A DNA stretch of 64,000 nt, from the NCBI RefSeq assembly GCF_001861355.1, contig NZ_MASN01000030.1:248001-312000 (forward strand), read 5' to 3'. Below the pieces are notes generated by a model that made no database searches, was not told where the DNA came from, and saw only the letters and a program-made list of their open reading frames with translations. The translations under genes were made by a program, and so were the position numbers. Shown here one piece after another: positions 1-62,875 of the stretch (position 1 is its first letter; the number at the start of each line of letters is the position of its first letter). This DNA is from Natrialba sp. SSL1 (GTDB taxonomy: Archaea > Halobacteriota > Halobacteria > Halobacteriales > Natrialbaceae).

Positions 1-1069
1 CGTCGATCAACGAGGTCTCATCCGTCGACTCGTCATCGACTGCGAGGTCGTCAGCAAACGACTCGTCGTCGAGGTCGTCCTCGAGTGGATCCGTCCCTTC
101 TGTGGCGCTCTGGTCCGCTGGCTCGTTGCCACCGTCCTCAGCCCCCGCCGCTGCATCGCCGTCCCAGTCGGCGTCGCCGGAGTCGTATTCGGATTTCAGT
201 TCATCGAACGACAGGTCATCGTCACCACCGGAGTCAGCGTTCGCATCGAGGTCGTCGTCTGCGTCTGCGTCCATGCTCATATCGTCCTCCAGGTCGTCGA
301 ACTCGTCGTCATCCTCGAACTCCTCATCGTCGTCGATGATGCTCTCGTCCAGGAAATCGTCGGCTTCGGCGTTCGCGATATCCTCATCGATCGCCTCGTC
401 CTCCTCGTCGCCGTCGTTACTGTCGAACAGACTCTGTCCGCCGAAATCGCCGCTTCCAGCGGCACCGCCGCCGGCCATCGAATCAGTGAGGGTATCGCCC
501 TCGACGAACGGGTTGACACCCTGGGTCACCATCTCGTAGACCTCGAGGAGTTTCCGGATGTTCTCCTCGATATCGTCGAGCGATTCGCTGATCTTTTCGT
601 TCTCGCTCTGGACGGTGTTCACCGTCGAAGAAAGCGAGCCGACGCTGTTCTCCATCTCTTCGACGCGCGCTTCGACCTCACTCGAGACGGTGCCGCCGCC
701 GTCGTCCATGGCGTCCATCCCGTCCATCGACCCCATATCGTCCATATCACCCATCTCGGACATCTCGCCCATGCCGTCCATCGACATCGAGTCGTCGTCG
801 AGGAAGTCATCCCCACCGCCGTCGAGATCGCCGTCGAGGTCACCGCCGAGGTCGCCATCGTCAAAGAGATCGTCGTTACCGGTGCCATCGCCGCCGTTCC
901 CCCCGGCGGCGCTCTCAGTTCGCGCACCTGGGAGCAACTCGTCGTCGCTCATGCTGCCGGCGAGGTCACCACCGATGATGTCGTCGCTATCGTTCCCGGA
1001 GTTCGAGCGACCACTGGCGCCGTCGCCATCGCCGTCTCCGAGTATGTTGCCGATTATCGAGAGTACCAT
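1..1069 (-). CDS. ArlCE/FlaCE-like archaellum protein, second paralogue (3' end outside window)
   Basis: This is the N-terminal 356 residues of an open frame that runs off the left edge. It starts at an ATG at 1069 and encodes a strongly acidic protein. Residues about 94-121 are Met/Asp/Gly rich, about 128-180 look like a coiled coil, and the archaellum FlaC/FlaD signature TQGVNPFV lies at about 182-189. An acidic linker with AEADDFLDE follows, which is also found almost unchanged in the complete ArlCE at 4875-6653. Known of the family: ArlC/D/E form the cytoplasmic ring that links the motor to the Che system through CheF. A motility-type promoter motif lies at about 1208-1228, roughly 140 bp upstream. 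The FlaD/E C-terminal domain, if present, is beyond the window. Confidence 0.8.
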   Translation of the reverse strand, partial: MVLSIIGNILGDGDGDGASGRSNSGNDSDDIIGGDLAGSMSDDELLPGARTESAAGGNGGDGTGNDDLFDDGDLGGDLDGDLDGGGDDFLDDDSMSMDGMGEMSEMGDMDDMGSMDGMDAMDDGGGTVSSEVEARVEEMENSVGSLSSTVNTVQSENEKISESLDDIEENIRKLLEVYEMVTQGVNPFVEGDTLTDSMAGGGAAGSGDFGGQSLFDSNDGDEEDEAIDEDIANAEADDFLDESIIDDDEEFEDDDEFDDLEDDMSMDADADDDLDANADSGGDDDLSFDELKSEYDSGDADWDGDAAAGAEDGGNEPADQSATEGTDPLEDDLDDESFADDLAVDDESTDETSLID

Positions 1070-1207
1070 GGTGAACCTGTTCCGCTGGCGTCTACCGCTC
1101 GCTCACTCGTTGCCATCCCCGGTCGGCCACCGAACAGAACCCGCGTGCTGGCTCGGCGCTCCGGATGGCTACGAGTCGTCATTCAGGAAAACTATGACAA
1201 CCTACGT

Positions 1208-7269: not shown

Positions 7270-7776
7270 TCACTCCGATACCGTAATCCACGCCGTCTCA
7301 GCAACACCGCGTTCAGTCGTGATGCGGATACTGTCCTCGTCTTCGTCGCCGGTGAACTCGAGTTCGCCGTTCGCGTCGCCGCCGTCGGAGAGTTCGATAT
7401 CGAGTTGCGTGCCGGGCGTCCAGACGTCGCTCTCGTCGCGTTCTGCCTCGCCGTCGACGATCGTCGTCTCGTCGTCGTAGCCCTGAGTGGGGTAGAAGTG
7501 GCCGTTGACGACGAGGTCGGTTTTCTCGACGGAGAGCGAGGTCGATCCCTCGTTGGTCACGACAACGAGAGCATCGTGTTCGTCATCGTCGCCAATGTAC
7601 TCGAAGGAGTCGATCGAGAGGGCGGTGTTCTGCTGGTCCCGCAGTTGGTCGTTCTGGGCGGCGAACGCGTCGCCGGTCGCCGCGCCGACGCTGAACACCG
7701 TGGGGACGATGACACTGACGGCGACGAGGAAGCCAACCAGGATGACGAGAACAGCGCCGCTCGTACTGAACCCCAT
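7270..7776 (-). CDS. arlF: Archaellum stator protein ArlF (FlaF)
   Basis: The protein has 168 residues with an N-terminal membrane helix (STSGAVLVILVGFLVAVSVIV) followed by an extracellular immunoglobulin-like beta domain. Known of the family: ArlF binds the S-layer and forms the stator with ArlG. The TATA-like TTTTAA at about 7802-7807 is about 25-28 nt before the ATG at 7776, so the mRNA is probably leaderless. A TGGCCA element sits just upstream of that TATA and resembles the archaellin promoter motif. The gene probably heads an arlF-arlG-arlCE operon separate from the archaellin genes, because an oligo-T tract lies between them. Confidence 0.88.
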   Translation of the reverse strand: MGFSTSGAVLVILVGFLVAVSVIVPTVFSVGAATGDAFAAQNDQLRDQQNTALSIDSFEYIGDDDEHDALVVVTNEGSTSLSVEKTDLVVNGHFYPTQGYDDETTIVDGEAERDESDVWTPGTQLDIELSDGGDANGELEFTGDEDEDSIRITTERGVAETAWITVSE

Positions 7777-7798: not shown

Positions 7799-7820
7799 TT
7801 CTTAAAAGCGCTCTGGCCAG
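7799..7820 (-). promoter_or_regulatory. arlF promoter with archaellum-type TGGCCA element
   Basis: On the minus strand the order is CTGGCCAG, about 8 bp, then TTTTAAG, and 25 nt later the arlF start codon. The TGGCCA-to-TTAA layout matches the archaellin upstream repeats, though the spacer is about two bases longer. This supports a shared motility regulator, which is inference. Confidence 0.5.
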
Positions 7821-8686: not shown

Positions 8687-10024
8687 TTATAGCCTCACCG
8701 ATTCGTCATCATTCGTGATAGTCGTTGGAACACGAAGCTCGGTTTCCGTTGTCGCACCGGAGTCAGTCGTGAAGATAACGGACAACCGCTCACCCTCGCT
8801 CAGACGGTTGTAGTTGTCAATTTCACCGACGACACGAAACGTCACTTCTGCTCGGTCGGTACTGTCAGTCAGCACACCGTCAGTGACACCCTGAATGTCA
8901 TTGACGTTCCGGGCATCACTGATAGCGACACTGTCTGCACCCTGCTCACCGATGAACTGAACAGATGTCTGTTCGAGGTCGATCGGGTTCGATCCAGGTG
9001 CCGTCGCAGCTACGAACTGTAGTTCGTCAACCCGGTTTTCGAAGTCACCAAGGTTACTAACCTGATCGATGCCAAAGCCATAGAACAGGACATCTTCACC
9101 CTCGCCACTGATTGCATCTTCGTCACCTTCATCTCCTGCCTCGAAGACAGTGTACGTTACTGCTTCAAGGCCAATAATCTCAACAGCATAGCCGCCCTCG
9201 TCTAGCGATCCAAGGTCAACAACTGCGTAATTTCCATCAAGTTCATAATCGGATCCACTACCCTCGTCACCGATATCAGTGGCGTCATTTACGATATCGT
9301 AGACGAAGTCGTTTTCATCCTCGAAGTCGCTTTCTGCATCTACATTATAGAAGACATCTTCGATGTCTCCGAGAGTTCTGTCAGCGTCTGTCGTACGAAC
9401 TGCGAACTCTTCCTTCACCTCACTTTCGTCATACTCCTCATCGATGCTATCTGGAAGTTCGATGAGTGCTTTGACATCACTTGCGTCGGAGTCCTCTGGA
9501 AGTGCCGTGATTTGATCGTCATCGGTGAACTCAACCCCACCACCGGATGCTTCGGCAGTCTGAGCTACAATGGATTCTCCATCAACAGTTACAGCTAAGT
9601 CATCTGCCGGAACATTGTCAAATTCAACTTCAATACTTTCTCCGTCACCAGACTCTTCCGGGAGTTCTATGACTTTTGTATCCTCATAGCCTGCTACAGC
9701 ACTTGTTGCAACAGATACTACGATATCTTCTTCTGCTATTTCATCATCAGCTATTGCTATCTCAGCGGTGATTGTTGCGTCGCTGAGTCCTTCAGCCCCA
9801 ATTGTAGTTGGAGCAACGCTACCAGATTCACTCACGATCTGCAGGCGATCGCTCACCTGACTTGTACTATCCTCACCGGTGGCTTCAGCCTGCGTCTGCA
9901 AGAAGCCAGCCGTGTTAATCAGCACGCCCGCGGCAATCGCAGCGACAAGCACCATCGCGATGAACACGATAAGGGTGCCGATCCCCACCTGACCGCGGTC
10001 GTCGTCTGTAATTCGTTCGAACAT
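8687..10024 (-). CDS. Archaellin with enlarged central domain, 445 residues
   Basis: The N-terminus [20 protein letters not shown] and the following helix are nearly identical to the second archaellin. The C-terminal part carries the family-typical strand-rich segment and ends [11 protein letters not shown]. The central ~250 residues are extra compared with the 219-residue neighbour and are extremely Asp/Glu rich. DNA for this middle part is visibly more AT-rich than the conserved ends, which suggests a variable, recombining or transferred filament-surface domain. It is the first gene after the four-copy promoter array. Confidence 0.92.
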
Positions 10025-10078
10025 TGGTATTATACACCCGGCGATACCGGGCAGTGGACACTGGTTCAGAGCGATTGT

Positions 10079-10190
10079 TATTAAGTCTACTTGCCAAACT
10101 TTACACTCTTAACTCTAACTGCCGATAGGTGGATATCTTAAACCTACTGGCCGAACTGCTGGACAGGTAATTAAACTTGGTGGCCGATCC
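10079..10190 (-). promoter_or_regulatory. Archaellin promoter region with four tandem GGC(C/A)A-N7-TTAA repeats
   Basis: Read on the minus strand, four units follow one another: GATCGGCCACCAAGTTTAAT (10170-10189), GTTCGGCCAGTAGGTTTAAG (10137-10156), TATCGGCAGTTAGAGTTAAG (10108-10127) and TTTGGCAAGTAGACTTAAT (10080-10098). In all four, exactly 8 nt separate GGC from TTAA. The units begin 28, 29 and 33 bp apart, close to three helix turns. The nearest TTAA could be the TATA box, giving a start about 30 nt before the ATG at 10024. The others are likely binding sites for a motility activator or alternative TATA boxes. The function is inferred. Confidence 0.65.
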
Positions 10191-10259: not shown

Positions 10260-10454
10260 ATGAATATCGTTGACGGCGACAAGATCGAGTGTAGCCGCTG
10301 TGATGACATCGTCTCACTCGACGACGCCAATATTCTCGGCAAATCGAACAACCGCACCTACGCGAAACCACTCTGTGACGACTGTCTGGAAAACGTCGGC
10401 GTCCCGCGCGGTTACGAGCTCGAACGCGACGTGAGCTACCTCAAGAGCGAGTAA
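10260..10454 (+). CDS. Small zinc-finger-like protein, 64 residues
   Basis: The protein carries two Cys pairs, CSRC (residues 11-14) and CDDC (about 39-42), spaced like a zinc ribbon, and ends GYELERDVSYLKSE. The start at 10260 lies about 28 nt after a TATA-like TTATC, so the message is probably leaderless. It is divergent from the archaellin genes. Small CxxC proteins are abundant in haloarchaea and a few affect biofilm and motility, but the role of this one is unknown. Confidence 0.7.
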   Translation: MNIVDGDKIECSRCDDIVSLDDANILGKSNNRTYAKPLCDDCLENVGVPRGYELERDVSYLKSE

Positions 10455-62744: not shown

Positions 62745-62875
62745 AGACGTCCTACGACGGTAATCGACGTAACGGTTGCCGGCGATGTGCCGGGTTCGGG
62801 AAATCGCCGCCGAACCCGGACCCCGAGCGTGGAGAGGCCGGAGCGTTTTTGTCGGCGCGCTGTCTTCGCTCGCTC

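Follow-up and report, generated by a model that had tools for sequence, protein, structure and literature searches.

A conserved four-unit array in archaellin promoters of Natrialbaceae as a candidate motility operator

The promoter of the archaellin genes of Natrialba sp. SSL1 contains a short directional element in four tandem copies. This raises the question as to whether the copies form an operator for a motility regulator, a row of TATA boxes or a repeat without function, and whether similar elements in front of other motility genes belong to the same system. The question is of some weight for haloarchaea, for which CsmR of Haloferax is the only archaellum regulator described in the open-access literature that we found (PMC13286277). 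We have addressed it by comparing the window, i.e. the whole 64-kb stretch of DNA analysed here, with archaellin loci and genomes of the family and order.

Four units in the archaellin promoter and their conservation

Four GGC-N8-TTAA units are present on the minus strand between positions 10081 and 10185, directed into the archaellin genes (Table 1), with start-to-start steps of 33, 29 and 28 bp from distal to proximal. They are the only matches to this pattern on either strand of the window, in which 1.6 would be expected, and dinucleotide shuffling of the 236-bp intergenic region, repeated 20,000 times, gave 0.02 units on average and never three or more. PWM scores of the array units range from 20.7 to 30.0 and that of the next site in the window is 15.2, the window's own units having contributed slightly to the matrix. 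The array is real, and the shuffles speak against a chance origin. The description in the first-pass annotation of four copies with 8 nt between GGC and TTAA and a spacing of 28–33 bp is therefore borne out, whereas its GGC(C/A)A box fits three of the four units, unit 3 reading GGCAG, and the strand is the minus strand. The term "phased array" is apt in that the spacing is fixed and conserved, but helical phasing is doubtful: 28–29 bp correspond to about 2.7 turns, which leaves the units off a common helix face, and only the 33-bp step comes near three turns.

Table 1 Features of the archaellin, arlF and arlCE2 regions of the window.
Feature	Position	Strand	Details
Unit 4 (distal), GGCCACCAAGTTTAA	10171..10185	-	33 bp from unit 3; step of 32–33 bp in 25/25 four-unit promoters
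Unit 3, GGCCAGTAGGTTTAA	10138..10152	-	PWM score 27.5
Unit 2, GGCAGTTAGAGTTAA, then GAGTGTAA	10109..10123	-	GTGTCA/GTGTAA kept at the GAGTGTAA position in other genera
Unit 1 (proximal), GGCAAGTAGACTTAA	10081..10095	-	Top PWM score, 30.0
Predicted stem-loop in the archaellin mRNA 5' leader, CCCGGTATCGCCGGG	10037..10051	-	Folding and leader comparison
First archaellin gene, 445 aa, Arch_flagellin	8687..10024	-	Pfam PF01917
Second archaellin gene, 219 aa	8025..8684	-	Pfam PF01917
Divergent 64-aa zinc-ribbon-like protein, CxxC pairs	10260..10454	+	Neighbour of the archaellin promoter
arlF promoter element, GGCCAGAGCGCTTTTAA	7802..7818	-	GGC-N8-TTTT (or GGC-N10-TTAA)
arlF, 168 aa, archaellin-like stator subunit	7270..7776	-	Pfam PF01917; conserved start MGFSTSG
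arlCE2 promoter element, GGCCACAATTACTTAA	1209..1224	-	GGC-N9-TTAA; TTAA begins 30 nt upstream of ATG 1182
Possible 42-aa upstream ORF	1054..1182	-	Overlaps the arlCE2 start (ATG 1069); placed for leaderless translation
arlCE2, second arlCE-type gene (FlaC domain)	2..1069	-	Pfam PF05377; cut by the window end

Which of the four TTAA sequences serves as TATA box is suggested by promoters that lack the array. The predicted archaellin TATA box, TTAATA at 10079–10084, lies within unit 1, about 60 nt upstream of the ATG. Many Halorubrum archaellin promoters, and those of a second class of Natrialbaceae loci (class 2; see below), have a single TATA-like box, TTTAATA, at roughly the same distance from the ATG as unit 1. 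Because this lone box sits at a similar position, unit 1 is likely the core promoter and units 2–4 are upstream copies. The archaellin TATA box is thus very likely provided by the TTAA of unit 1, and the copies farther upstream may be operators or additional TATA-like sites. A predicted GC-rich hairpin lies a short way upstream of the archaellin ATG; leaders of other genera and of Halorubrum contain similar stem-loops of different sequence. The divergent gene for the zinc-ribbon-like protein is present at 22 array loci and six class-2 loci, and at none of 39 other loci.

To define the distribution of the array, we searched 293 genomes of the order (Halobacteriales) for two adjacent units, with the reversed pattern as a control. 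The forward pattern gave 40 matches and the control seven altogether. Thirty-six of the 40 directly precede archaellin genes, in 14 genomes of the window's family; outside that family only four scattered matches occur among the 293 genomes, and about 45 archaellin loci of Halorubrum, Haloferax and others contain no array. Within the family, 78 archaellin regions were fetched and the upstream regions of 200 archaellin genes scored. At least two chained units are present in 43 of these, at least three in 31, exactly four in 25 and five in none; 600 shuffled upstream regions contain no chain. Array promoters span about eight genera of Natrialbaceae (Natrialba, Halopiger, Halobiforma, Halostagnicola and others), and in several genomes with 5–6 archaellin genes many of these genes have an array of their own. 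Since the genomes (one per species, partly drafts) are related and hence not independent, the events are fewer than the counts suggest.

The unit consensus across the 43 promoters is TCGGCRAGTAGANTTAA, and each rank has its own version. Unit 1 is mostly TTGGCGAGTAGAYTTAATA, with GGCG; unit 2 is TCGGCAAGTAGAGTTA(A/T), often reads TTATATA and has a conserved GTGTCA after it; units 3 and 4 share GGCAA--AG--TTAA. The spacings are equally specific, being from the gene outward 28–29 bp (39 of 43), 29 bp (27 of 31) and 32–33 bp (all 25). Conservation in orthologous archaellin promoters, which had been proposed as a check on the array, is therefore evident, and both the site number, four at most, and the spacing are conserved as in a cooperative operator array. 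The rank-specific spacing and consensus also indicate that the layout is selected and is not the product of recent tandem duplication. Tandem repeats do arise in that way, and close relatives within a genus share the array by descent, but neutral duplication of an AT-rich promoter piece, or chance, would have to produce different spacings in the same order across many genera together with a distinct consensus at each position, and we consider the likelihood of such an origin negligible.

The published sizes of Natrialba archaellins (195/222, 431/212 and 481/212 aa) are matched by archaellins of related genomes (PMC7349177). The window's own genome has a second archaellin locus, split over two contig ends (L095, G000:C20:1-420; L096, G000:C14:1-700), the promoter of which contains only degenerate units as judged by PWM.

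Single units in front of other motility genes

Layouts related to the array unit had been noticed at 1208–1229 and 7799–7820, pointing into motility genes. Both exist and both are independently conserved as promoters, of arlCE2 and arlF, respectively, although their internal spacing differs from that of the array units and the PWM misses them. In front of arlF, a TATA-like TTTTAA begins 31 nt upstream of the ATG, and an element of the type TGGCC(A/G)G-N-(A/C/G/T)GCTTTT (TGGCCAGAGCGCTTTTA) recurs at about 28 loci in more than ten genera, where its distance to the arlF start is about 42 nt. This element is kept although the ArlF proteins can be as little as 36–45 % identical. It is present also in class-2 genomes without an archaellin array, and the exact 15-mer GGCCAGAGNGYTTTT occurs at arlF only in the genomes searched. 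The arlCE2 element is part of a block of about 54 bp that is kept in 7/7 Natrialba genomes and has diverging flanks. The length and both ends of the 42-codon ORF are likewise constant in all seven, a conservation that is partly forced because the C-terminal part of the ORF overlaps arlCE2. In the single-unit promoters TTAA or TTTT is 28–31 nt from the ATG, which is consistent with leaderless starts and makes this box probably the TATA box. The arlF and arlCE2 elements are therefore probably leaderless promoters in which a GGCC box directly precedes BRE/TATA, and from their shape we infer that they may be under the same factor as the array.

A promoter-like block at 62836–62850 (GGCCGGAGCGTTTTTGTCGGCGCGCTGTC; GGCCGGAGCGTTTTT), kept in Natrialba, resembles these elements and precedes a gene without a motility link, the product of which has a CxxC-type (HNH-like) start. 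Because the GGCCGGAGCGTTTTT box precedes a non-motility gene, not every GGCC-TATA layout denotes motility, and a reading of GGCC-N-TTTT as a motility-only layout is unsupported.

Among 21 genomes, exact matches to GGCVANTAGANTTAA number 39 in those with arrays, where 35 belong to archaellins, and none in the seven array-less genomes. With one mismatch allowed, about 20 further sites away from archaellins appear in 14 array genomes. Most of the non-archaellin copies in these 14 genomes precede chemotaxis transducers, which exceeds chance as transducers make up less than 1 % of genes. Three orthologue groups of sites (G045/G101, G080/G081 and G025/G028) precede methyl-accepting transducers, and in two of them TTAA is 28–29 nt from the ATG. 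The regulon is narrow, however, because most transducer genes are without a unit: it is present at only a few of about 60 such genes in six genomes, and the idea of a broad, sigma-28-like transducer regulon was toned down for this reason. Strong single sites in genomes G093 and G094 were left out as part of a repeated non-coding element (L212, L214, L215), in which a unit-like TTGGCAAGTAGGCTTAATA comes first and is followed by a conserved G-rich stretch. Elsewhere, TTGGGGAGTAGAATTAAGC in three copies (L213, L224, L225) precedes a gene for a small (93–97 aa) possible winged-helix protein, with a PadR-like gene adjoining.

The array and CsmR

CsmR of Haloferax volcanii binds the motif TATCA-N4-TGATA beside the TATA boxes of archaellum and chemotaxis genes (PMC13286277), and an obvious possibility is that the array is an operator of CsmR or of a CsmR paralogue. 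Haloferax prahovense has, next to its archaellins, a winged-helix ORF of 112 aa that matches the description of csmR, and the archaellin promoter of this species contains TATCAATCTTGATA. The published motif is present in this Haloferax promoter, but none was seen in the array promoters inspected. Genes of the csmR type adjoin the archaellins in nearly all fetched Halorubrum/Haloferax-type loci and in 8/8 class-2 Natrialbaceae loci. The array is found in none of the Natrialbaceae or Halorubrum/Haloferax loci with an adjacent csmR and, conversely, csmR is beside the archaellins in none of the loci with at least two units, as far as the fetched flanks extend. Most array genomes do encode a CsmR-like protein (55–60 % identical) at a distant locus, but such a homologue is present also in genomes without an archaellin match, and Halostagnicola has arrays without a close CsmR homologue in the genome (best E about 1e-10 to 1e-11). 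Given that csmR is absent beside arrays and that Halostagnicola has arrays without close CsmR, the array is not a CsmR site; we have rejected CsmR as its binder and regard a paralogue in that role as very improbable.

In the class-2 promoters (L112, L114-L117, L122 and L107), a single conserved element, TTGAAAATACTGGCTCAGG (TTGAAAATACTGGCTCAGGTTTAATA), replaces the array upstream of the first archaellin. TTGAAAATACTGGCTCAGGTTTAATA is a candidate site for the divergent csmR paralogue beside the class-2 archaellins. Upstream of their TATA box, Halorubrum archaellin promoters (L346-L381) have a conserved TTATCA-N4-(G/A)ATAA, which is similar to the published CsmR motif, and csmR is adjacent. The two states, array and adjacent csmR, occur side by side within two genera, in one (g13) as 'Natrialba swarupiae' vs. 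Natrarchaeobius and in the other (g9) as Halostagnicola, with arrays, vs. genome G027. That the same genomic position holds an array and no csmR points to a different motility switch, and the distribution suggests that the archaellin switch has been replaced, apparently more than once. A comparison of the ORFs up to about 20 kb from seven array loci and from four class-2 loci yielded a single regulator shared by the array loci and missing from class 2, a TetR protein beside a MATE pump; it most likely serves the exporter and was discarded as array factor.

Proposed mechanism, alternatives and known systems

The reading we favour, and which we consider probable from the sequence comparisons, is that of a motility operator array with its proximal unit over BRE/TATA, bound by a dedicated factor other than CsmR. 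The array would form the archaellin promoter's cis-regulatory module, with a GGCRA box, a BRE-like AGTAGA and a TATA-like TTAA in each unit. Unit 1 would be the working core promoter (TATA = TTAATA) and give a short structured leader, and the remaining two or three copies, at fixed spacings of 28–29, 29 and 32–33 bp, would be operators. The dedicated factor would bind GGCRA where it borders the BRE on the upstream side, and would help TFB and TBP to assemble; multiple copies would raise occupancy and make archaellin transcription strong and switch-like, and single-unit versions would serve weaker motility genes such as arlF, arlCE2 and some transducers. We infer protein binding, activation, cooperativity and a common control of arrays and single units, and it is a guess that the factor is an activator rather than a repressor, as a protein over unit 1 could also block the TATA box. 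Two properties of the unit do not fit easily: it is not palindromic, which would be unusual for a dimeric archaeal regulator, and TTAA is kept in upstream units, for which a pure upstream activator has no need.

The retention of TTAA in every upstream unit, exactly 8 nt from GGC, keeps alive the other reading of the first-pass annotation, several TATA boxes; the interpretation given there as a whole is supported by the conservation of the units. Each unit would then be a TBP/TFB assembly site, maybe for a particular TFB/TBP pair, providing several landing sites or starts. The position of the box in single-unit promoters is that expected of a TATA box, the directional, non-palindromic unit resembles BRE/TATA, and the frequent TTATATA of unit 2 fits as well. 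However, initiation complexes 28–29 bp apart would collide, starts from upstream units would land inside the next unit, and class-2 and many Halorubrum promoters manage with their one TTTAATA at a similar place. Nor is TFB known to recognise a GGC box beyond the BRE, and overall several TATA boxes seem possible but unlikely. A variant, in which the units represent a core-promoter type dedicated to motility and recognised either by a specialised TFB/TBP pair or by a co-factor that adds a GGC box to the BRE, is doubtful on present sequence evidence; if it were true, one promoter class would serve archaellin, stator and transducer genes in a sigma-28-like manner, with the archaellin promoter stacking four copies. 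Alternatively, a repressor or chromatin-like protein, e.g. of the Lrp type, could coat the units, spaced by about 29 bp, and keep the archaellins off until a signal arrives. Unit 1 overlaps the TATA box, the regular spacing of about 30 bp would suit a multimeric protein that wraps the DNA, and negative control does occur in haloarchaea, since csmR deletion in Haloferax raises archaellum transcripts (PMC13286277). Silencing is nonetheless improbable, because the unit is directional with a BRE-like part in its consensus, arlF, arlCE2 and the transducers have one unit only, which is weak for silencing, and no candidate protein was found.

For the favoured operator array, the promoter itself offers an exact bait sequence of about 110 bp for finding the missing regulator. 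It also poses a general question for archaea, namely whether a TATA-containing unit can be used as a repeated operator.

Several known systems resemble parts of this arrangement. Archaea are without sigma factors; in bacteria, sigma-28 (FliA) class 3 promoters are a promoter type common to the filament gene and chemotaxis transducers. The array unit likewise precedes the filament gene and transducers, but only a minority of the transducers carry it. The class-2 promoters (Natrarchaeobius, Halopiger goleimassiliensis and others) belong to the same family, share gene order and leader hairpin with the array loci and have their TATA box, TTTAATA, at a similar position; they differ by carrying TTGAAAATACTGGCTCAGG in place of the array and by the divergent csmR paralogue located between archaellin and neighbour. 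The CsmR operator of Haloferax volcanii is, as the array would be, a haloarchaeal motility-regulator site adjoining the TATA box; it is a single semi-palindrome with csmR beside the archaellins, whereas the array has another sequence and is restricted to loci without adjacent csmR. The nearest working model is EarA of Methanococcus maripaludis, a dedicated motility activator reported to be absent from haloarchaea (PMC13286277). EarA acts at four sites that directly adjoin BRE/TATA on its upstream side in the fla promoter (PMC5512572), which provides a precedent for the array design. As in that promoter, the array places several short sites upstream of the archaellin BRE/TATA, with the predicted TATA box in unit 1 and units 2–4 upstream of it. 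The EarA sites, however, are 6 bp long and are upstream of one BRE/TATA, whereas the array units are about 15 bp long, have a TTAA each, are spaced by 28–33 bp and recur as single copies before other motility genes.
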